NCBI GenBank assembly: GCA_029564595.1
Contig: JAKQPS010000160.1
Span: forward strand, 62,001-126,000
Source: a bacterium
Lineage (GTDB): Bacteria > UBP15 > UBA6099
Reading direction: 5' to 3'
DNA: 64,000 nt
Position numbers and translations under genes: made by a program. Positions 50,613 to 63,720 of this stretch are shown here, piece by piece (positions within the stretch are counted from its first letter, which is position 1; each line of letters opens with the position of its first letter). The notes beneath the pieces are model-generated. The model did no database searches, was not told where the DNA came from, and was given only the letters and a program-made list of their open reading frames with translations.

Positions 50613-53600
50613 ATGAGAAGACATTTTATTGTCTTGTTGTTAATGTTGGGAGCTTTGACAATATGCTGCGGAGGGGCGTTTGCGGCTGATTGCACGAGCG
50701 TCGGGGCCGGGCCGGGGGATATCTGCATAGTATTGCAGGACGAGCTTGGCAACCCCATCGCCGGGGATGTCGATACGGTAGTGGAATTTTTAACCGAGGG
50801 CAGCGACGGCTCGCTGTCTAATCCCAATGTGCAATTTGATTTGTATGACGGACATGCGAACGATTCGAGCGGAAGCCCGGCTGACGGAGTGATACTTGTC
50901 ACCGCAGCGCAGCTTGCATCGTGGAACGCGTTCAATTTTGGGAATCCCGCGCCTTATGACTGGCGGATTTCGGTGACCTCAGCGTCTGGTTTCGTAAAGT
51001 ATCCGGCGGAAGATTTATTCTACAGTCAGGCGGCAGTGAACACGGCGAGCTCCGACCCGATTCAGCTTGAATACTCGTTGCATGTGTCGTTGGTGGACGA
51101 GCTTGGAGCGCCGATAGATTCCGGAGGCGGGCAGATAGAGATTACGGGGTTCGCGGCTTGCAACGGGACATATCGAGATGGCGTTCCGGGGGAAGACAAC
51201 GACGGGGTGGAGGACGGCGAGATATACGTTCTGTGTCCGGTTGTGAATCCCACCGCGATAGGGGTGGAAGTTACGGCGGACGGTTTCACTGATTTTGACA
51301 TCCCGGCGGTTGTGATAAGCAGGGACTCGCAGGCTCTGGAAACGACCTCGCAACAATACACTCTAAAAATCAATTCTGGAGATATCGAAGATTTTCTGGC
51401 TAACACGATAACGCCTGCCGATGCCGCCGATGTGAGCGGCTGGTTCACGGAATCAACGACGGCAGTGGCAAAGGCGCTTGTGGACGGCGGAGACGTGTAT
51501 ATAGCGGCGGACGGCGCGGGCGATCTGACGATCAGGTATCCGGGCTATCTGGAAAAGACGATAGCTGTGACTCCGGTGACGACGGCGCAGACGACTGTGG
51601 CGTACACCGGGGCGGACGGGCTGGATTATCAGATAGTGGTGAATTACGGCGGCGGCAACGTGGAGGACGAGCTTGGCGGCGCGCTAGGGTTCGACGCGGC
51701 GGACGCGTTTGTGGTGTCGGCGACATGCGGCGGGGCGGTTATCCCGCACACGGCGGCTGATGACGGGGCGGCGTGGTATATAGCGCCTGAGACGGCTCCG
51801 GGCGCGTTGTATGTGACGATATCGAGAGCGGGGTATGTTGACACCTGCGACAATTCGACCGTGACGACTACGTGGACGGCGGCGGATTCTCCCGCGTTTG
51901 AACCGGGAGACAGCGACGGACTGCCGTTTACTGTGAAAGTTGTCGTGGAAGACGAGCTTGGAAATGCGATAACGGGCGCGACGGCTGTGATAACCGGAGG
52001 GGAAACGGCGATAGACGGCGGGCTGGGCGACGGCGACGGGATGGCGGACGGAGTCATATATATCGCACAGGATCCAGCCGCGCTCGGCGCGGGTCCGCAT
52101 GAGATAACTGTGTCAAAAGCCGCATCGGGATTCATCGAATGGGCAGACGCGACTAAGACGATTAGCGCGACCGCGCAAACAGAATATACGACGGCAAACG
52201 AATATACGGTGAAAGTATCGGCTCTGGAAGACGAGTTAGGTAACACGCTGACGGGAGCGACGGTGACGTCGGGCGCGGGCGGCGCGGTGGCCTGCGTGGA
52301 GCCAGCGGCGCCGGACGGCAGTTACTATTGCGCTGTGCCGGATGGCGAAACATCTGAAGTTACGGCGGCGATGCCGGGATATATCGAAAACACGGCTGCC
52401 ACGCTGGGCGGAGCGGACGAAGACGGAGCGCAGATTGTTCAGGACATGAGCGACGGAACGGGAAGCGAGTTGCTCTTCACAGTAATGGTATCGGCTCTGG
52501 AAGACGAACTTGGGAACACGCTGACGGGCGCGACGGTGACGTCGGGCGCGGGCGGGGGGGTGGCTTGCGTCGAACCTGCGGTCGCGGACGGCAGTTATTA
52601 TTGCGCGGTTCCGGACGGAGAGACATCAGCAGTCACAGCGGCAAAAACAGGCTACATAACGAACACTGCGGCGACGCTCGGAGGAGCCGCCGAGGCAGGC
52701 CCGCAGTTGACGCAGGACATGAGCGACGGCAGCGGAGACGAACTCTTATTCACAGTTAAGGTTGACCCGGTTGAAGACGAACTAGGGAACACGCTGACGG
52801 GCGCGACGGTGACGTCGGGCGCGGGCGGGGCGGTGGCCTGCGTCGAACCGACTATAGCGGACGGTTCGTACTATTGCGCGGTTCCCGATGGAGAGACATC
52901 GGCTATTGTCGCCTCAATTTCAGGTTATATCGCTGGCGGCGCGGCGGACAACGGATCGGCGGACGAAGACGGCGCTCAGGTTGTTCAGGACATGAGCGAC
53001 GGCAGCGGAGACGAACTTCTATACACTTTAAAAATACCTGATTTGCAGAACGAAATCGGCGACACTCTGCTCGGGGCGACAGTGACTTCGGGCACGGGCG
53101 GAGCTGTGGCCTGCGACGAACCTGCCGCGCCGGACGGCAGTTACTATTGCGCTGTTCCGAACGGGCAGACGACGGCAGTGACAGCCGCGCTCGATGGATA
53201 CATCACGCGCGCCGCGACGACGGTCGGCAACGCGGACGAGGGCGGCGCGCAACTTGAACAGATTATGACGGACGGCAGCGGCAAGGAACTGCTGTTCACG
53301 GTCAAGGCGACTATTGAGAACGAAGTGGGCGACACGATAACGGGGGCGACAGTGAATTCCGGCGCGGGCGCGGCGGTGGCGTGCCTCGAAGAAGCCGCGC
53401 CGGACGGCAACTATTACTGCGCGGTTCCAAACGGCGAGACATCCGAGGTCATCGCGTCGTTCGGCGGATATGTGACGAGGACGGCGGCCACAGTGGGGAA
53501 CGCGAATGTGGGCGGCTCTCAACATGTTCAGAATATGACGGACGGCAGCGGCAAAGAATTGCTTTTCACAGTAAAAATTTCTCCGCTGCAAAATGAGATA

Positions 53601-56600
53601 GGCGGAACCCTGACGGGGGCGACGGTGACGTCGGGCGCTGGCGGAGCGATCCCCTGCGTGGAGGAATCGGTTCCTGACGGCAACTATTTTTGTCCCGTCC
53701 CCAATGGCCAGACATCGAATGTCACGGCTGTAAAGTCGGGTTACATAACAGGAACTTCGCTCGGATTGGGCAATGCCGCAGAGGCCGGCCCGCAACTTAT
53801 GCACGACATGTCGATGGGTTCGGGCAACGAACTGTTGTTCACTGTCGTGGTGACAACGCTGGAAAACGAAGTAGGAGCCACTGTCAACGCGGCGACGGTG
53901 GCGTCGGGCGCGGGCGCGGCGGTGACATGTTCACAGAAGGCTGTCCCGGACGGGAACTACTATTGCGCGGTTCCGAGCGGAGAAACTTCCGAGGTTGTCG
54001 CCGGCAAATCGGGATATGTGAATAGAACAAAGGTCTCGATTGGCAACGCGGCGGCGGGTGGGCCGCAGCGCATTCATGATATGACGGACGGGTCAGGCAG
54101 CGAACTGCTCTTTACGGTTAAGGTTTCGACGCTTGAAGACGAGATAGGAAACACTCTGACGGGCGCGACTATAAGGTCGGGAGATTTGGCGGACATAGTG
54201 TGCGTTGAGGAAACCGCGCCGGACGGGAACTATTTCTGCGCGGTTCCGGACGGTCAGTCCTCGGCGGTGGTCGCCGCTAAATCGGGATATGTGACGGAGA
54301 ACGCGGCGACGCTGGGCGCGGCTGCGGCGGCGGGGCCGCAGCGCATTCATGACATGACGGACGGCAGTGGCGGCGAGTTGCTATTTACCGTCAAAGTGAC
54401 ATTGCTCGAAGACGAGCTTGGAAACTTGCAGACTGGCGCGGCGGTGACGTCCGGGACGGGCGGCGCGGTCGTGTGCGTCGAGGATGGCGTCCCTGACGGC
54501 AGCTACTACTGCGCAGTTCCCAGCGGCCAGACTTCTGAAGTGGCAGCATTAGTGGACGGATACGCAAAGAGAACGGCTGCGACTCTGGGAAACGCCTCGG
54601 CGTCAGGCCCGCAGCGCGAACAGATAATGAGCGACGGGACGGGAAAGGAACTGCTGTTCACCGTCAAGGCGACGCTGGAGGATGAGCTTGGAAATGTGAT
54701 AACCGGGGCGACGGTGACATCCGGCGCTGGCGGAGCGATTGCCTGCGCCGAGGACGCGGCTCCCGACGGCAACTACTATTGCGCGGTTCCGTGGGGGCAG
54801 ACTTCCGCGGTGTCGGCGGCAAGCGCCGGATATGTGACATCGACGGCTGTCTCCCTCGGCAACGCTTCGGACGCTTCGCAACTTCTTCAGAACATGACGG
54901 AGGGGACGGCGGGCGAACTGCTGTTCACCGTCAAAGTGTCCGCGCTTGAAAACGAGTTGGGCGACACGATAACAGGGGCAACGGTGACATCCGGCGCGGG
55001 CGGCGCGATTGCCTGCGACGAACCCGCAGTCGCAGATGGCAGCTATTATTGCGCGGTTCCCGACGGTGAGACGTCGGCAGTCACCGCAGTTTACGCCGGG
55101 TATATCACGGGCGCGGCGGGCACGCTTGGCGCGGCGGCTGAGGCGGGGCCTCAACTGATTCAGGATATGAGCGCGGGCACGGCGGGCGAACTCCAGTTCA
55201 CAGTGATAGTCTCCGCGCTGGAAGACGAGCTGGGCAACACGATAACGGGAGCTACGGTGACATCCGGAGCGGGCGGGGCAGTCGGCTGCGTCGAGCCTGC
55301 AGTCGCCGACGGCAGCTACTATTGCGCGGTTCCGAACGCCGAGACGTCCGCAACGACCGCGGCGAAAACAGGATATATCACAGGAGTCGCGGTAGATATA
55401 GGCAACGCGTCGGCGGCGGGGCCGCAGCGCTCTCAGGACATGAGCGCGGGAATGGCGGGGGAACTCCAGTTCACAGTGATGGTTTCCGCGTTGGAAGACG
55501 AACTGGGCAATCCTCTTACAGGCGCGACGGTGACGTCGGGCGCGGGCGGGGCGGTGGCATGCGTCGAGCCTGCCGCGCCGGACGGCAGTTACTATTGCGC
55601 GGTTCCCGACGGGGCGACATCGGACGTCACGGCGGCAAAGGCGGGATATGTGACGGGAACGTCCACCGGACTCGGCAACGCCAACGAAAGCGGCGCGCAG
55701 CTTAGCCACGACATGAGCGACGGAACCGGCGGCGAGCTGCTTTTCACAGTCAAAGTGACCGCGCTTGAAAACGAGGTGGGCGACACGCTGACAGGCGCGA
55801 CGGTGACATCTGGAGCTGGCGGCGCGGTCGCTTGCGTCGAGGACGCGGTTCCAGACGGCAGCTACTACTGCGCGGTTCCGAACGGCGGCACATCCGCCGT
55901 AACAGCGGCGATCACGGGGCATGTGACCGGAACAGTGGCGAGCGCGGGCGCTGCGGACGAGAGCGGAATACAGATTGAACAAGACCTTAGCGACAGCAGC
56001 GGCGACGAGCTTCTGCTGACATTAAAAGTGACGCTGGAGGATGAACTCAGCAACCCGCTGACGGGCGCGGCTGTTACGTCCGGCGCGGGCGGCGCGGTCG
56101 CTTGCGTCGAGGACGCGGTTCCGGACGGCAGCTATTACTGCGCGGTTCCGGACGGAGAGACGACGGCGACCGAGGCTTCTCTGGGCGGATATGTGACGAT
56201 GACAGCGCTGACGCTCGGCGGAGCCGCCGAGGCCGGCCCGCAACTTGTTCAGAACATGGTCGCCGGAACGGGCGAAGAGCTTCCGTATACAGTGAAAGTT
56301 TCCATGCTTGAAGACGAGCTTGGCAACCCGATAACGGGCGCGACGGTGACTTCCGGCGCGGGCGGCGCGATCGTCTGCGTTGAGCCTTCGGTTCCGGACG
56401 GCAGCTACTACTGCGCGGTTCCGGACGGAGAAACGTCGGCGGTGACCGCTTCGCTGGCGGGCTATGTCACGGCGACGGCGGGCACTCTTGGAAACGCGGA
56501 CGAAAGCGGCGCGCCGCTCGTTCAGGATATGAGCGCGGGAACGGCGGGCGAACTGCTGTTCACCGTTAAGGTCTCCGCGCTCGAAGACGAGCTTGCAAAC

Positions 56601-59600
56601 CCGCTGACGGGCGCGACGGCGACGTCGGGCGCGGGCGGCGCGGTGGCGTGCGTCGAGCCTGCGGTCGCCGACGGCAGCTATTATTGCGCGGTTCCCGACA
56701 GCGAGATATCGGATGTTTCGGCGGCGAAATCAGGATATATAACAGGCGGAGCGACGGGGTTGGCCGTTGCAAGCGAGAGCGGCCCGCAGCGCGAACATGA
56801 CATGAGCGACGGAACCGGAAACGAACTTCAATTCACAGTCATAGTGTCCGCGCTTGAAGACGAAACAGGCAACGCTCTGATGGGCGCGACGGTGACGTCC
56901 GGCACAAGCGGGGCGGTGGCATGCGTAGAGCCTGCCGCGCCCGACGGAAGTTACTACTGCGCGGTTCCGGACGGCGAGACGTCCGACGCAACGGCGTCGA
57001 TAGCAGGATATGTGACAGGAACATCTACCGGACTTGGCAATGCCGACGAAAGCGGGGCGCAACTCGACCACGACATGAGCGACGGTTCCGGCGGCGAGCT
57101 TCTATACACAGTCAAAGTCTCCACGCTCGAGAACGAAGTAGGCGACACGCTGATCGGCGCGACGGTGACATCCGGCGCGGGCGGCGCGATAGCTTGCGTT
57201 GAGGACATCGTTCCCGACGGCAATTACTTCTGCGCAGTTCCCGACGGCGAAACATCCGCTGTCACGGCGGCAATCGCGGGACACGTGACGCGGACCGCCG
57301 CGACAATGGGAGCGGCGGACGAAGGCGGCGCGCAGCTTGTTCAGGATATGAGCGACGGCAGCGGCGATGAAATGCTGTTCACCGTGAAAGTCGCGCTTGA
57401 AGACGAGGTTGGCGGAGCGGTGACAGGAGCCACGGTGTCGTCCGGCGACGGCGCGCTGGTCGCCTGCGTGGAAGACATCGTACCCGACGGCTTCTATTAC
57501 TGCGCTGTTCCCGATGCGGAGTCTTCCGAGGTGGAAGCGGCGGCGGCAGGATATATAACGACTACTGCGGCGACAGCAGGCCCCGCCGACGAAAACGGTT
57601 CTCAAATAGTTCAGAGCCTTGTGGACGGCAGCGGCGAAGAAATGCTGTTCACGGTCAAACTAACAATACTTGAAGATGAACTCGGCAACACGCTCACTGG
57701 AGCGGCGGTGACATCCGGCGCTGGCGGCGCGGTCGCCTGTGTCGAGGACGTCGTTCCCGATGGAGCCTATTATTGCGCCGTGCCGAACGGCGAGACGTCC
57801 GCGATGGCGGCGGCAAAGACCGGATTCATCACAGGCGGCGCGGCGGACAACGGCAATGCCGACGAAAACGGAGTTCAGGTTCTTCAGGACATGAGCGACG
57901 ACACGGGCGACGAGCTTCTGTTCACAGTCATGCTGACCGTGCTCGAAGACGAACTAGGCAACCCGCTGATGGGCGCGACGGTGACATCCGGAACCGGCGG
58001 CGCGATTGCCTGCGTCGAACCGGCGGTAGCGGACGGCAGCTATTTCTGCGCTGTTCCAGATGGCGAAACATCCGATGTGACGGCTGCGAAGACAGGCTTC
58101 ATAACAGGCGGAGCGTCGGGATTGTTGGCGGCGGCGGAAGCGGGGCCACAGCGCGCTCATGACATGAGCGACGGCACGGGAGACGAACTTCTCTTTACGG
58201 TTAAAGTGACGGCTCTTGAAGACGAACTCGGCGCCACGCTGACAGGCGCGACTGTTACGTCCGGAACAGGCGGCTTGATTGCTTGCCTCGAACCCGCAAT
58301 CGTGGACGGCAGCTATTTCTGCGCCGTTCCCAATGGCGAAACGTCTGCCGTCACGGCGGCGCTGGACGGTTACATAACCCACACCGCAGCCACCCTCGGC
58401 GGCGCGGACGAAAACGGCGCGCAACTCGAACAGGACATGAGCGACGCAACCGGCGACGAACTTCTGTTCACCGTCAAGGCGTCCGTGGAAGATGAACTTG
58501 GCAACACGCTCACCGGCGCGACGGTGACTTCCGGAACAGGCGGCGCGACCGCATGTCTTGAAGACGGCGTCCCGGACGGTTTCTATTATTGCGCGGTTCC
58601 GAACGGCGAGACTTCAGCCGTGACCGCGGCGCTCATCGGCTATATCACATCGACCAGAACATCGGCGGGCAACGTGAACGTCGGCGGTTCTCAAATACTT
58701 CAGGATATGACGGACGGCAGCGGAGATGAGTTGCTGTACGTCATAAGAATAGACGCCGCGCAGGAGGAACTCGGAAACGCGGTGGACATAGAAGTTGGAG
58801 ACGTCGCGACGCTGTACAACACGGCGGGATGCTCCGGCCTCGAAGCGCCGCTGGACCCGCCCGCGTATGACGCGGCGACGGAAGCGTGGTATATCCGCAT
58901 CGCTCCCGGCTCGTATTACGCCAACTTGAGCAAGACGGGATACGTGGACGCATGCGACGCGACGACAGTCGCGGCGGCGGCGGCCGGGCCTCAGGCGATA
59001 CCCACTTTCACTCTGGCAGGCGGGGATCCTTTGAGGTACGGACTGAAAGTGAAGGTTTACGACGAATACGACAGGCCGATAACGAACGCGACTCTAACTC
59101 ACGGCGGCCTTCCGCCCGTTCACGAGAACATCGGCGTGGAGGCGAACACTTATTACTTCGACACTGCGGGAGCCGCGGGCCTAGTCGTTTCGAAAGAGGG
59201 ATACCAGACTATAAATCAGACGACCGCCGGAAGAACCACCGAACCGGGCGGCGGCGCGATTAAACAGACTTCGCTCACTCTCACCGGCAAGTCGAGCGGG
59301 AGCTTGGAAGACGGCGACATCGCGGCGATTCCCGCCGGGACTGTCGAAACGCGCAACGGGCTTCGCCTGCTCAACAACGTGAAACTCACTCTTCAGTACG
59401 ACAACGGAGTCGATTCCGGCGGCCTGCTCGGCCTCGGCAGCCTGACCAACTTCTATTTCCTTTCGGCGACAGGCTCCCGCGTCATCCCGTCCGCTTTCAT
59501 TGAGGTCGATCCTGTCAATCTGCCCGGCGAGTACCATTTCAGAGTTCCCGGCACGACCGCAAGCGTTCAGGTCAAGGACGTCGATTACAACGAAAACCCG

Positions 59601-62210
59601 TGGATCGACCTTGTCGATTCCGAAGTGATACCCCTCGCGGGATTGGACGAGCTTTCCCTTCACGACTATGGGACGGTGACGATGTATCCTAGGGCGGACC
59701 ACGTCGAGTTGACGGCGGACGCTTCTTTCTTCGCCGCAGCCACCAGCACGGTCTCAATCGCCGTCAGAGACAATGAAGGCAACATCATAACCGTAGGCCC
59801 GCATTCTGAGTTGAAGGTTCTGTTCTCGATGTCGGGCGGCTCCGTTTCTCCGCCTTCATTGAAAGACATCACGGACACATCGCTGGACAACGCTTCCAAT
59901 ATTTCGGGGGCCGCAGACACGAGCTTGACCGGAGAAGTCGCGGTTGGTGAAGGCGCTGTGGATATTTTCGACAGCGTGGTGTCCGGAGCCACGCCCATAC
60001 TGTTGTCCGCGGAAGCGGCGGACATTGTTCTTGAGCAGAACTTCGCGGCGAACACCGCCAATCTCGCTATCGACGTCGAGCATGCCGCCGCGTACAAAGT
60101 TGTCATTCATCAACCGGCGAACGTGACGACTGACGACGTGGCGACTGTGACCATTGAAATCCAGGACGAGTCGGGCAATGTCGTTGAATCAGGGACGCAG
60201 TATCCCAAGATAACCCTGACCGGAAGCGCGCTCATATCCTCTGTCGTGACCGGGACGAGATTCTCTCCGATCGGCGCGGATCCCGTGGATGAAATGACCA
60301 TTGAGACGGACAACGGGCGCATCGTGATAGAAATTTCGGACACAGTGGCAGAAACCACAGCCATCTCCGTTAGCAATGTTCTGCTGGAGCTTCCCGTGCC
60401 GGTGGACCTGACGTTCGCGCACGGAGCGCCTGCCGCGGTTGTCATAACGGATGTTTCTCACGCGACCCAGTCGGCGGGCGACGACGTTTCGGTTGAAATT
60501 GAAATCCATGACGCAAACGGCAACCTCGCCACTTCAAGCGAACCTATATTCACTGTCACAGCGGTGGGCGACGGAAACAACACCGCCAAGTTCACAGCCG
60601 CGACGACGGGCGACATCGTGTCTGGCGTTAACACCCACATTGCAGCCGTAAAAGCTTCCGGGGGAATTGTCGTTCTGACTCTGACTGATCAAAGCGCGGA
60701 GACTGTTGATATCTCTCTCCAAGACTCTGCGGGCGTAGGCCCCGCGTGGGACTGGACTTCGACGGATGAAGTGGAATTCTTCCAGTCCGGCATAGACTAT
60801 ATTACCGTCGACAGGACTACGGTGACTCTCATAGCCGGACAGTTGACGCCGGCAATAGTTGTTTCCGTTTTCGATGAGTTCGGCAACCCGGCGACAGGCA
60901 GGGCCTTGGACTTGACCGTAACCCTCAACTCATCCAGCGCTCAAGACCTCTTCTATACGACGGATCCTCCCGGCGCGGCGGTAACTTCCATAACCATCCC
61001 CGCCGCCGGATACTTCGCTCATTTCTATTACTACGACACGAAGGCAGGCGTGGCGACGATAACCATGTCCGCCGCCGGAGCGGACGACGTGACGACTCAG
61101 GCGACTGTCAATCCCGGCGCGCCCATAAACGCTGTCACCGTGACGACATCCTGCGGCTACGTCGACGCCAGCCAGCCCACAGGGTTCACCTGCAAACAGG
61201 AAAAGACAATCAACGCCCAGCCTTTCAACCTAGTCGAGTATCCGCGCACCGCGACTGATTCTTATGAATATCAGATCGTCGCCGACGGGCACACCAGAGG
61301 GGTGATAAAACTTCTCGTGGTTGACCAGTACGGCAACGCTATAGCCGGGGAGGACGTCAATTTCGTTGTTTCCGGCCTAACGGGCGCGGTCGTTTCTCCG
61401 GCGTCCGCCACTACGGACGCTGACGGAAAAATTACCGCTGAGATAACTTCGACAGCAGTCGGCTCCGCGCTAGTCAGGGCTGATCTCGCCGATTACGCGT
61501 ATGACTACGGCGTGTCGTTCACGGCGACTTTCAAAGCTGACGACAGGACGCCGCCCACAATCGCGCGGTTCGACAGCAAGACGCTCGTGGACGGCGACTA
61601 TGTGGACGCCCTCGGACCTATCGTAATCAGCGTCGTTCTAGACGACCCCGGGGACAATGCGGTGGGAATCAACTTGGCGGACGCCGACGCGATAACCGTA
61701 GCGGTAATGGCGGTCGGTGGCGGAACAGTGAACGGCGTGACGAACAAGACCGGGTGCGACTCCGAATTGGACTTGTCCGACTGCGTGGTGAGCTGGGAGC
61801 CGTTTGTCAGCATGACTGCCGGCTCTTATGAAGCGACTCTGACCGTCAAAGACAGGAATGGGAACGAACAGACGCAAGCATGGACGGTGGTTGTGGAGGG
61901 AAGCGCGGCCCTCAAGGACGTGTTGGCAGGCCCCGGCGTGTTCGATCCCCGGAGCGGACAGTCCATGACGATTTCGTTCCAGTCTTCCGAGGCGGGCGCG
62001 GTCGTGACTCTGGAAATCTATAACAGGTCTGGCCAACTGATACACCGGGATGTGCTGGTGGCCGACGCCGGATACAACTATTTCGAGTGGGCGGGACGCA
62101 CGCTCTATGGCAATTTGCCCGGCAACGGCATTTACATTTTCAGGCTGACGGCCAATATGGCGGGGCAAGTGACTTCTCAGACTGGCAAACTGGCGGTGTT
62201 CAAACCGTAA
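50613..62210 (+). CDS. Giant secreted repeat protein (3865 aa), adhesin-like
   Basis: The protein starts at ATG 50613 with a Sec signal peptide (RRHFIVLLLMLGALTICCGGAFA). Residues ~25-537 hold several diverged modules containing DELG. Residues 538-2715 are 24 tandem modules of ~91 residues, each with (L/V)EDELGN, GATVTSGAGG, DGSYYCAVP and GY blocks; the overall form resembles a carboxypeptidase-regulatory-like beta sandwich, and two cysteines per module suggest a disulfide. Residues ~2716-3760 hold further Ig/Big-like modules (e.g. VVDQYGNAIAGEDV, near 3565). The last ~95 residues match FlgD-like Ig domains (VTLEIYNRSGQLI, GIYIFRLT), common as C-terminal sorting or anchoring modules. It is probably a fibre-like cell-surface or secreted protein. 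A sigma-54-type promoter precedes it and a PorV-like barrel follows. Confidence 0.85.
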   Translation: MRRHFIVLLLMLGALTICCGGAFAADCTSVGAGPGDICIVLQDELGNPIAGDVDTVVEFLTEGSDGSLSNPNVQFDLYDGHANDSSGSPADGVILVTAAQLASWNAFNFGNPAPYDWRISVTSASGFVKYPAEDLFYSQAAVNTASSDPIQLEYSLHVSLVDELGAPIDSGGGQIEITGFAACNGTYRDGVPGEDNDGVEDGEIYVLCPVVNPTAIGVEVTADGFTDFDIPAVVISRDSQALETTSQQYTLKINSGDIEDFLANTITPADAADVSGWFTESTTAVAKALVDGGDVYIAADGAGDLTIRYPGYLEKTIAVTPVTTAQTTVAYTGADGLDYQIVVNYGGGNVEDELGGALGFDAADAFVVSATCGGAVIPHTAADDGAAWYIAPETAPGALYVTISRAGYVDTCDNSTVTTTWTAADSPAFEPGDSDGLPFTVKVVVEDELGNAITGATAVITGGETAIDGGLGDGDGMADGVIYIAQDPAALGAGPHEITVSKAASGFIEWADATKTISATAQTEYTTANEYTVKVSALEDELGNTLTGATVTSGAGGAVACVEPAAPDGSYYCAVPDGETSEVTAAMPGYIENTAATLGGADEDGAQIVQDMSDGTGSELLFTVMVSALEDELGNTLTGATVTSGAGGGVACVEPAVADGSYYCAVPDGETSAVTAAKTGYITNTAATLGGAAEAGPQLTQDMSDGSGDELLFTVKVDPVEDELGNTLTGATVTSGAGGAVACVEPTIADGSYYCAVPDGETSAIVASISGYIAGGAADNGSADEDGAQVVQDMSDGSGDELLYTLKIPDLQNEIGDTLLGATVTSGTGGAVACDEPAAPDGSYYCAVPNGQTTAVTAALDGYITRAATTVGNADEGGAQLEQIMTDGSGKELLFTVKATIENEVGDTITGATVNSGAGAAVACLEEAAPDGNYYCAVPNGETSEVIASFGGYVTRTAATVGNANVGGSQHVQNMTDGSGKELLFTVKISPLQNEIGGTLTGATVTSGAGGAIPCVEESVPDGNYFCPVPNGQTSNVTAVKSGYITGTSLGLGNAAEAGPQLMHDMSMGSGNELLFTVVVTTLENEVGATVNAATVASGAGAAVTCSQKAVPDGNYYCAVPSGETSEVVAGKSGYVNRTKVSIGNAAAGGPQRIHDMTDGSGSELLFTVKVSTLEDEIGNTLTGATIRSGDLADIVCVEETAPDGNYFCAVPDGQSSAVVAAKSGYVTENAATLGAAAAAGPQRIHDMTDGSGGELLFTVKVTLLEDELGNLQTGAAVTSGTGGAVVCVEDGVPDGSYYCAVPSGQTSEVAALVDGYAKRTAATLGNASASGPQREQIMSDGTGKELLFTVKATLEDELGNVITGATVTSGAGGAIACAEDAAPDGNYYCAVPWGQTSAVSAASAGYVTSTAVSLGNASDASQLLQNMTEGTAGELLFTVKVSALENELGDTITGATVTSGAGGAIACDEPAVADGSYYCAVPDGETSAVTAVYAGYITGAAGTLGAAAEAGPQLIQDMSAGTAGELQFTVIVSALEDELGNTITGATVTSGAGGAVGCVEPAVADGSYYCAVPNAETSATTAAKTGYITGVAVDIGNASAAGPQRSQDMSAGMAGELQFTVMVSALEDELGNPLTGATVTSGAGGAVACVEPAAPDGSYYCAVPDGATSDVTAAKAGYVTGTSTGLGNANESGAQLSHDMSDGTGGELLFTVKVTALENEVGDTLTGATVTSGAGGAVACVEDAVPDGSYYCAVPNGGTSAVTAAITGHVTGTVASAGAADESGIQIEQDLSDSSGDELLLTLKVTLEDELSNPLTGAAVTSGAGGAVACVEDAVPDGSYYCAVPDGETTATEASLGGYVTMTALTLGGAAEAGPQLVQNMVAGTGEELPYTVKVSMLEDELGNPITGATVTSGAGGAIVCVEPSVPDGSYYCAVPDGETSAVTASLAGYVTATAGTLGNADESGAPLVQDMSAGTAGELLFTVKVSALEDELANPLTGATATSGAGGAVACVEPAVADGSYYCAVPDSEISDVSAAKSGYITGGATGLAVASESGPQREHDMSDGTGNELQFTVIVSALEDETGNALMGATVTSGTSGAVACVEPAAPDGSYYCAVPDGETSDATASIAGYVTGTSTGLGNADESGAQLDHDMSDGSGGELLYTVKVSTLENEVGDTLIGATVTSGAGGAIACVEDIVPDGNYFCAVPDGETSAVTAAIAGHVTRTAATMGAADEGGAQLVQDMSDGSGDEMLFTVKVALEDEVGGAVTGATVSSGDGALVACVEDIVPDGFYYCAVPDAESSEVEAAAAGYITTTAATAGPADENGSQIVQSLVDGSGEEMLFTVKLTILEDELGNTLTGAAVTSGAGGAVACVEDVVPDGAYYCAVPNGETSAMAAAKTGFITGGAADNGNADENGVQVLQDMSDDTGDELLFTVMLTVLEDELGNPLMGATVTSGTGGAIACVEPAVADGSYFCAVPDGETSDVTAAKTGFITGGASGLLAAAEAGPQRAHDMSDGTGDELLFTVKVTALEDELGATLTGATVTSGTGGLIACLEPAIVDGSYFCAVPNGETSAVTAALDGYITHTAATLGGADENGAQLEQDMSDATGDELLFTVKASVEDELGNTLTGATVTSGTGGATACLEDGVPDGFYYCAVPNGETSAVTAALIGYITSTRTSAGNVNVGGSQILQDMTDGSGDELLYVIRIDAAQEELGNAVDIEVGDVATLYNTAGCSGLEAPLDPPAYDAATEAWYIRIAPGSYYANLSKTGYVDACDATTVAAAAAGPQAIPTFTLAGGDPLRYGLKVKVYDEYDRPITNATLTHGGLPPVHENIGVEANTYYFDTAGAAGLVVSKEGYQTINQTTAGRTTEPGGGAIKQTSLTLTGKSSGSLEDGDIAAIPAGTVETRNGLRLLNNVKLTLQYDNGVDSGGLLGLGSLTNFYFLSATGSRVIPSAFIEVDPVNLPGEYHFRVPGTTASVQVKDVDYNENPWIDLVDSEVIPLAGLDELSLHDYGTVTMYPRADHVELTADASFFAAATSTVSIAVRDNEGNIITVGPHSELKVLFSMSGGSVSPPSLKDITDTSLDNASNISGAADTSLTGEVAVGEGAVDIFDSVVSGATPILLSAEAADIVLEQNFAANTANLAIDVEHAAAYKVVIHQPANVTTDDVATVTIEIQDESGNVVESGTQYPKITLTGSALISSVVTGTRFSPIGADPVDEMTIETDNGRIVIEISDTVAETTAISVSNVLLELPVPVDLTFAHGAPAAVVITDVSHATQSAGDDVSVEIEIHDANGNLATSSEPIFTVTAVGDGNNTAKFTAATTGDIVSGVNTHIAAVKASGGIVVLTLTDQSAETVDISLQDSAGVGPAWDWTSTDEVEFFQSGIDYITVDRTTVTLIAGQLTPAIVVSVFDEFGNPATGRALDLTVTLNSSSAQDLFYTTDPPGAAVTSITIPAAGYFAHFYYYDTKAGVATITMSAAGADDVTTQATVNPGAPINAVTVTTSCGYVDASQPTGFTCKQEKTINAQPFNLVEYPRTATDSYEYQIVADGHTRGVIKLLVVDQYGNAIAGEDVNFVVSGLTGAVVSPASATTDADGKITAEITSTAVGSALVRADLADYAYDYGVSFTATFKADDRTPPTIARFDSKTLVDGDYVDALGPIVISVVLDDPGDNAVGINLADADAITVAVMAVGGGTVNGVTNKTGCDSELDLSDCVVSWEPFVSMTAGSYEATLTVKDRNGNEQTQAWTVVVEGSAALKDVLAGPGVFDPRSGQSMTISFQSSEAGAVVTLEIYNRSGQLIHRDVLVADAGYNYFEWAGRTLYGNLPGNGIYIFRLTANMAGQVTSQTGKLAVFKP
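52224..58757 (+). repeat. 24 tandem ~273-bp coding repeats
   Basis: Twenty-four in-frame modules, 90-91 codons each, occupy 6534 bp. Modules 4-8 are the most diverged (LQNE/IENE/LENE starts, EEAAPDG variants), while modules 1-3 and 11-18 are closest to consensus. Cys pairs (AC-V-E...YYCAVP) are kept in all but a few positions. Long stretches of near-identical DNA make recombination and copy-number change likely. Confidence 0.95.
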
Positions 62211-62271: not shown

Positions 62272-63720
62272 TTGAAACTGACACTGATATCGAGAATGGC
62301 AATAGCCGCTCTGGCGGTCACGATTGCGGCGGCGGCGGGCGCGCGCGCTCAGGACGCCACCGCTCAGACCGACTTCTTCCGCGAAGGCTCCACCGCCCGC
62401 TCCTTTGGCATGGGCAACGCATTCGTCGCCGTCGCGGACGACATAGGAGCCGCTTATTGGAACCCCGCCGGGCTGGCCCTGCTTTCCGGCTCCACTTTCT
62501 CCACCACGAGGTCGACTCTCGACATCTTCGACCTTAACACCCAGACGCTTTCCTTCGCGGCTCCCGCCTACGGAGGCGTCGCCGCCCTCAACTTGGTTTA
62601 CTCTTCCATCAGCGGCGGAATAGAGACCGAGTTCGATCCTATAACCGGCAGGCTCGTTCCGATCGGAACCTTTGAAGAAACCGATACCGCCTTCTCTATT
62701 TCCTACGGCAAAGAATATAAAGAGAATTTGTATCTCGGCGGAACGATCAAACACGCAATGCAGAAGGTGTCGCGGTTCAGCGCCTCCGGCTTTGGCCTTG
62801 ACCTCGCCGCGCTTTATCAATACAACGATTACATCCGCGCCGGGCTTGTTCTTCAGAATGTCGGCGACATGGATATCGGCTCCGACACCATTCCATTCAA
62901 CGTCCGCGTCGGAGCTTCAATCATAGTTCCTCAAGAACCAAAACTCCTTATCGCCGTGTCTTATGAAACGGAATATCTCAACGAATCCGTCGCGTCCATC
63001 GGAGCGGAATACCGCTTCGCCGAAAACCTGACCGCCCGCTTGGGCGGCAACGAAGACGGCCTTTCAGCCGGACTCGGCGTCCGCTTCGACAAGTTCCACC
63101 TCGATTATTCTTTCAACAGAAACGACGACTCCGGAGACGAAAACAGATTGACGGTCGGCTACTACGTAGAGTCTCGAAAGAAGGCCCCGGAAAAGAAGGG
63201 GCAGGAGGCTCAAGCGACCGCGACTACGGAGTCCGAACAGCCGAGGACGACTCCGTCAAGGCCTGAAAGAGCAAAGAAAACAGAAGACGCAGACCCCGCG
63301 CCGGAGAGCGCTTCCGCGCCCGCCGAAGACGAACCGCCCAAACGCGGTCGCGGCAAAAAAGACGACGAAGAAAAACCGGCGGCGACGGAACCCGCTCCGG
63401 CGGCGGAAGAGACCGCCGCAACGAGCGTCCCGAAAAGAGGGACGATTTCCACGCCTGAACCGGCGGCTCAGCCGGAAAAGAAACAGGAAGCCGCAGTCGC
63501 GCTTCCTCCTCTGCCTTCCAAATCTGAAGTTCCAGCCGCTTCCGAAAGCGACATGAAACTTCAGCCTGTCGGCGGGGGAGATGGCCGCAGGGTTGACCTT
63601 CCGGGGCTGGACGACCTTCTGGGCGAACCCGAACCTCCGGAAGCGAGGATGTACCGCGAGGAGCAGTCGAGAAGAGACGGACGCATCGGCGAAGGTTCGT
63701 TCAGGTTGGAGCCTAGATAG
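62272..63720 (+). CDS. PorV/UPF0164-like outer-membrane beta-barrel protein
   Basis: A 482-residue protein; TTG 62272 lies after AGGTG. A signal peptide (ISRMAIAALAVTIAAAAGARA) is followed by ~270 residues of alternating strands with the family's opening: REGSTARSFGMGNAFVAVADDIGAAYWNPAGLAL, as in UPF0164 and PorV/PorQ outer-membrane proteins. Barrel strands continue to about residue 300 (LTVGYYVES). A ~180-residue Pro/Ala/Glu/Lys-rich tail without predicted structure then runs to the end, unusual for the family and perhaps periplasmic. PorV shuttles type IX cargo to the cell surface; the adjacency to a giant protein with a FlgD-like C-terminus suggests, but does not show, a similar role. Confidence 0.75.
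   Translation: MKLTLISRMAIAALAVTIAAAAGARAQDATAQTDFFREGSTARSFGMGNAFVAVADDIGAAYWNPAGLALLSGSTFSTTRSTLDIFDLNTQTLSFAAPAYGGVAALNLVYSSISGGIETEFDPITGRLVPIGTFEETDTAFSISYGKEYKENLYLGGTIKHAMQKVSRFSASGFGLDLAALYQYNDYIRAGLVLQNVGDMDIGSDTIPFNVRVGASIIVPQEPKLLIAVSYETEYLNESVASIGAEYRFAENLTARLGGNEDGLSAGLGVRFDKFHLDYSFNRNDDSGDENRLTVGYYVESRKKAPEKKGQEAQATATTESEQPRTTPSRPERAKKTEDADPAPESASAPAEDEPPKRGRGKKDDEEKPAATEPAPAAEETAATSVPKRGTISTPEPAAQPEKKQEAAVALPPLPSKSEVPAASESDMKLQPVGGGDGRRVDLPGLDDLLGEPEPPEARMYREEQSRRDGRIGEGSFRLEPR

Follow-up and report, generated by a model that had tools for sequence, protein, structure and literature searches.

A giant exported protein with 24 cysteine-paired, predicted transthyretin-like modules and an adjacent PorV-family gene in the candidate phylum UBP15

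The window analysed here (the whole stretch of DNA, 64,000 nucleotides, from a UBP15 metagenome-assembled genome (MAG)) encodes a giant protein of 3,865 amino acids, 24 modules of which each carry a pair of cysteines. Reading the translation confirmed that the ORF (50613-62210, forward strand) starts with ATG and is open throughout. We propose that the protein is probably a surface stalk with one disulfide per module, exported by a T9SS-like route and served by a dedicated PorV-family partner encoded by the next gene. From the sequences and predicted structures we infer disulfide formation, surface display, this route of export and a purpose in adhesion. To our knowledge, the candidate phylum has no cultured member. 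The features of the locus are as follows.

50613..50684, + strand: Sec signal-peptide-like N-terminus, residues 1-24, MRRHFIVLLLMLGALTICCGGAFA, with a putative cleavage site before ADC (translation read by eye)
50685..52196, + strand: diverged, predicted transthyretin-like modules, N-terminal, residues 25-528 (module profile, second round)
52197..58730, + strand: array of 24 modules of 90-91 amino acids, residues about 529-2706 (alignment, AlphaFold2 model, fold search)
58731..59267, + strand: two diverged modules C-terminal to the array, residues 2707-2885 (module profile matches at 2705-2808 and 2807-2885)
59268..61271, + strand: non-array region preceding Big_1, residues 2886-3553 (Pfam scan and ortholog alignment)
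61272..61493, + strand: Big_1 Ig-like domain, residues 3554-3627 (Pfam PF02369, 48.7 bits, cut-off 34.9)
61518..62207, + strand: C-terminal two-domain region, a homologue of the PorU C-terminus, ending in GKLAVFKP (profile against the PDB, AlphaFold2, Foldseek)
61959-62156, + strand: FlgD_ig, residues 3783-3848 (Pfam, 37.9 bits, cut-off 27)
62272..63720, + strand: gene for a PorV/PorQ-family outer-membrane beta-barrel (NF033709 match)

This layout agrees with the original prediction of an exported protein of the same length, with 24 disulfide-capable modules flanked by diverged copies and Big/Ig modules. The start is signal-like, Big_1 and FlgD_ig were both recovered, and diverged copies lie on either side of the array. 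In the N-terminal region, the second-round module profile matched residues 248-323, 349-416 and 436-519, the last of these being nearest to the array modules. Residues 436-521, just N-terminal of the array, also pass the Pfam model for the macroglobulin domain MG4 (window 51918-52175; 37.3 bits, cut-off 24.7), which is a surprising assignment for a module of transthyretin-like type. The description of nearly the whole protein as modules was somewhat strong: modules do dominate, and the array takes up 56% of the protein. Residues 2886-3553 are probably Ig-like, and a Glyco_hydro2_C5 match within them (residues 3172-3241) is weak and under its Pfam cut-off. No peptidase domain was found, and the protein looks purely structural. 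At E values up to 1, Pfam gave no adhesive domain; an undescribed one within the N-terminal 500 residues is possible. Antisense ORFs across the array (e.g. 54603-55982) were taken as shadow frames rather than genes.

The original prediction had overlooked the PorU/FlgD-type C-terminal domain and the adjacent, likely cognate PorV-family gene. A profile from an alignment of the C-terminal 230 residues in nine relatives matched the T9SS sortase PorU (6za2) among PDB sequences with E = 2e-11 over 205 residues (profile positions 26-230), with weaker matches to FlgD (2e-6) and PorZ (3.5e-4). The AlphaFold2 model of this region reached a pLDDT of 86.6, and PorU accounted for its top two Foldseek matches (E = 6.5e-9). 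The NCBIfam PorU model likewise matched with E = 3.9e-9, which lies below its full-length cut-off. Curated T9SS signal models remained below their cut-offs on the C-terminus (Por_Secre_tail, 15.9 bits against 23; CHU_C, 17.4 against 27), and FlgD_ig was the sole model of those tested on the C-terminal signal to pass. By its profile and its predicted structure, this C-terminus is a homologue of the C-terminal region of T9SS PorU.

The PorV-family gene starts 61 bp downstream of the giant gene on the same strand. Its product scores 107 bits with NF033709 (cut-off 90), above the curated threshold of the PorV/PorQ subfamily, and does not reach the equivalog models for PorV (33.6, cut-off 250) or PorQ (71.8, cut-off 220). 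Across seven genomes, 11 of the 16 above-threshold PorV-family genes directly follow a FlgD_ig-ended gene on the same strand, and the giant-PorV gene pair is present in three families of the order. A tree of the 16 PorV proteins, which contains some long branches, falls into three groups, linked to this giant, to a second giant and its relative, and to SprA, each with 98-100% support; the PorV genes linked to this giant form a single group (98/96 support) drawn from all three families. This clean split by neighbouring gene is what a dedicated giant-PorV partnership predicts, and the product of 62272-63720 is likely the cognate shuttle or anchor of the giant. It also bears a long Pro/Glu/Lys-rich C-terminal extension past the barrel (window 63100-63720). 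Giant-linked PorV proteins are long in general (487-526 amino acids vs 317-341 for the SprA-linked ones).

Every one of the seven genomes also encodes SprA-like proteins of about 1,100 residues, half the SprA length, with a short significant SprA match. They score far under the cut-off of the SprA model; in a profile-profile comparison with full-length SprA they reached a probability of 97.7 (E = 1.5e-12), and reversed or column-shuffled controls gave no match. SprA_N and GldM models found nothing in the genomes searched, in searches run without a positive control. Because distant SprA-like proteins were found and SprA_N and GldM were not, a T9SS-like export route is no more than plausible on sequence grounds. 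In one operon (L086:4140-12962), genes for a PorV-family protein and for a SprA-like protein of half length accompany the gene of a 1,333-amino-acid protein ending in FlgD_ig; SprA-like paralogs also occur elsewhere (e.g. L088:2251-5628). A wider reading, which we put forward tentatively and consider doubtful, is that a reduced T9SS-like route exists outside Bacteroidota, in which half-length SprA-like exits work with PorV paralogs each dedicated to one PorU/FlgD-ended giant, and that the PorV family acquired cognate pairing on its own, separately from PorP/SprF.

The giant could instead be periplasmic or form an S-layer-like or extracellular-matrix coat, with the PorV-family protein as an anchor or transporter unrelated to T9SS. 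Consistent with this, the canonical T9SS parts are limited to PorV-like and distant SprA-like proteins, FlgD_ig also occurred in non-T9SS proteins in our controls (E. coli and others), and some Foldseek matches of the C-terminal model are S-layer domains. However, PorU matches the C-terminus best and does so along the whole of both domains, the giant and its dedicated PorV are tightly co-inherited, and the Pfam scan of the giant gave no match to an S-layer family. We therefore regard a coat or a periplasmic location as unlikely, and favour the surface stalk.

The module itself appears well folded. AlphaFold2 modelled three consecutive modules from a 30-row alignment with a mean pLDDT of 81.8 and about 90 over the first module, as opposed to the unstructured modules that would have spoken against the original prediction. 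The other four models had mean values from 76 down to 36, and the packing between modules is therefore a tentative part of the prediction. Foldseek matched the predicted single module to a carboxypeptidase D domain (5aq0; probability 1.00, target TM 0.66), to the SusC N-terminal extension (9hfj; probability 1.00, target TM 0.57) and to the PapC C-terminal domain (3l48; probability 0.98-0.99). The top-ranked matches spanning three modules had a large rmsd and mean merely a string of beta-sandwiches. In line with the fold matches, CarboxypepD_reg was the commonest sub-threshold Pfam match (7 of 41 modules, best E = 0.0038); no CarboxypepD_reg or other transthyretin-clan model scored above its cut-off anywhere in the protein, and the module profile found only chance-level matches, mostly antibodies, among PDB sequences. 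The array module is thus predicted to be a beta-sandwich of transthyretin-like fold, and the repeat family that had been thought unnameable can be called transthyretin-like, or CarboxypepD_reg-like, by fold and by weak Pfam matches.

All 24 array modules contain the cysteine pair, 12 residues apart (C..(11)..C), and both cysteines are kept in 92 of 92 modules from four species. Other near-invariant positions in these 92 modules are E14, A22, S26, G27, G42, Y44, V48, P49 and G62. A search of the organism's own genome for the module returned 24 matches, all in this gene (E = 3e-30 to 1e-46), and shuffled sequences returned none. In the predicted model, Cys34 and Cys46 (column numbers of the module alignment) lie in a beta-hairpin and are placed for a cross-strand disulfide, which would presumably form. 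Judging by the CarboxypepD_reg consensus, we place the two cysteines on the strands that face each other either side of the DG turn of the hairpin. All seven genomes that were examined from the order encode VKOR, a disulfide-forming enzyme, with scores above its cut-off. Isopeptide bracing was rejected as unlikely, with neither Lys nor Asn invariant (Lys at column 7 in 66 of the 92 modules, no conserved Asn). The array is strongly acidic (46 K+R, 291 D+E, net charge -245; window 52197-58730). Its linkers are Asp-rich (DMSDGTGDE), and calcium could possibly bind there, as in RTX adhesins.

A different role for the cysteines, in metal binding or in intermolecular crosslinks that would join neighbouring fibres into a sheet or bundle, strikes us as quite improbable. 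The setting may be anaerobic (the ADurb name on one sister MAG presumably denotes an anaerobic digester), and the net negative charge of the array could favour metal-mediated contacts. Against this, each module has exactly two cysteines, always together and on facing strands of the hairpin equivalent, the genomes encode VKOR, and no metal-site motif was seen. A disulfide within each module thus remains the preferred reading.

Complete 24-module arrays in the same order are present in three species (this genome and two sister species), and a third sister species has at least 20 modules before its contig ends; all copies of the giant gene come from MAGs. Modules of 90 residues occupy identical places in the array across species. 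Mean identity between orthologous modules is 94% and 91%, vs 63% between modules at different positions, and the best partner of almost every module is its positional counterpart. Modules 2, 3 and 18 are among the small number of exceptions: in some species their closest partner lies at another position, which suggests local or partial gene conversion. With dN/dS at 0.14-0.15 in the array and 0.08-0.11 in the flanks, the array is under purifying selection. Near-identical DNA and a variable repeat number had been predicted, and neither was borne out: DNA identity between modules inside the array is 60-82% (mean 69%), and the number is constant. Tandem repeats in MAG contigs can collapse, and partial gene conversion is visible, but because separately assembled MAGs agree on count, order and the irregular 90-residue modules, and the modules differ this much in DNA, the idea of an assembly artefact, or of an array length that changes by phase variation, is hardly credible and already largely refuted.

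The close 91-residue module turned up in a single genus of UBP15 MAGs, both in a profile search of 241 genomes and when 84,980 species were scanned with a pattern; IMG/VR contained no match. An ortholog of the giant in another family of the order (genome G005) is 40% identical over the C-terminal 1,156 residues and has a different module version, of about 100 residues, in the array position. The module profile also matches this ortholog and a second giant of the own genome, and none of the shuffled sequences; the cysteine-paired 91-residue module is therefore a genus-level expansion of an older module. The G005 ortholog seems split over contigs C206 and C193 (L067:5221-10140 and L066:6948-13403; 1,640 and 2,152 amino acids); in its modules the cysteines take other positions, and about four alternating modules make up a super-repeat. 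The second giant, which is FlgD_ig-ended, is apparently broken across two contig ends (G000:C42, L069:4337-13003, and G000:C186, L070:5592-8183, minus strand; 2,889 and 864 amino acids). Diverged modules with cysteines are numerous in it, alongside a block of Ig-like repeats that are nearly identical, and a PorV-family gene of its own accompanies it. A 5,377-amino-acid ORF of the same genome (L072:1888-18018) has internal FlgD_ig matches, and no adjoining PorV gene was seen.

In the mechanism that we propose, the giant would enter the periplasm via Sec, where VKOR-linked oxidation would close the Cys34-Cys46 disulfide across the beta-hairpin of each module. Once oxidised, the 24 transthyretin-like (CarboxypepD_reg-like) modules would make up a stiff stalk, strongly acidic and about 100 nm long. 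Its PorU/FlgD-type C-terminal domain would act as the outer-membrane sorting signal, passing through a T9SS-like exit formed by the distant SprA-like proteins to the PorV-family barrel of the next gene, which would retain the giant on the outer face. The N-terminal diverged modules would point outwards and make contacts. At a typical domain length of 3.5-4 nm, we estimate roughly 85-95 nm for the array (24 × 3.5-4 nm) and up to about 150 nm for the whole protein. Of the rigid, disulfide-braced fibre originally envisaged, the stalk-like build and a cysteine pair placed for a disulfide stand; the predicted length of hundreds of nanometres comes down to nearer 100.

Isopeptide or ester bonds commonly brace the stalks of Gram-positive bacteria; if our reading is true, the bracing here, in a candidate phylum, would come from one disulfide repeated in module after module. 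That the number stays at 24 across species suggests selection on stalk length, where repeat numbers usually drift. The giant-PorV pairing offers a testable link of PorV-family paralogs to particular cargos outside Bacteroidota, and bears on the reach of T9SS-like sorting. A literature search on PorV with FlgD in candidate phyla found no paper, and one on UBP15 brought up papers on a ubiquitin protease only. The kinds of component are all known; what is new is their combination in a candidate phylum, a fixed-number array of Cys-paired, predicted transthyretin-like modules with a PorU/FlgD-type C-terminus and a putative dedicated PorV-family partner.

Among known systems, the closest arrangement is that of SprB/SprF and the type B T9SS pairs, in which an exported protein of very large size likewise ends in a sorting domain, and the gene of a cognate outer-membrane barrel comes directly after. 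SprF binds SprB (PMC9143113), and the type B adhesins of Flavobacterium johnsoniae require, for their secretion, cognate shuttles whose genes lie immediately downstream (PMC12618676). The known dedicated shuttles are PorP/SprF proteins that work with type B signals, and every type A substrate is served by PorV (PMC12618676), which counts against reading a PorV as a dedicated shuttle. The giant also differs from SprB/SprF in its PorU/FlgD-like C-terminus, nearer type A, in a partner from the PorV/PorQ family, in its transthyretin-like modules with a Cys pair, and in that the canonical T9SS motor was not found here. With the PorU C-terminal region (6za2) it shares a sequence-profile and fold match over about 205 residues, and not the peptidase domain. 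By structure comparison its modules fall into the fold class of CarboxypepD_reg, Cna_B and SpaA, the last two being common stalk domains of the transthyretin clan CL0287 (PMC8286594), but they score below the clan cut-offs, carry the hairpin Cys pair and occur in 24 close copies. The Mobiluncus mulieris adhesin, with 7,651 amino acids and 51 Ig-like domains, is braced by ester, isopeptide, disulfide and thioester cross-links, the disulfide having been seen between adjacent strands (PMC10619420). Both are giant stalks of tandem beta-sandwich domains with internal covalent cross-links, here predicted from the Cys pair; in contrast to that Gram-positive protein with its mixed cross-links, the giant has the conserved Cys pair only, and outer-membrane-type sorting. 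Fibrillar adhesins in general share its tandem stalk domains (24 modules plus flanking Ig/TTR-like domains), though not its lack of an adhesive domain in the Pfam search. All in all, giant surface stalks are already known from other bacteria, and this protein looks like a variant of these and not like a novel kind of protein.
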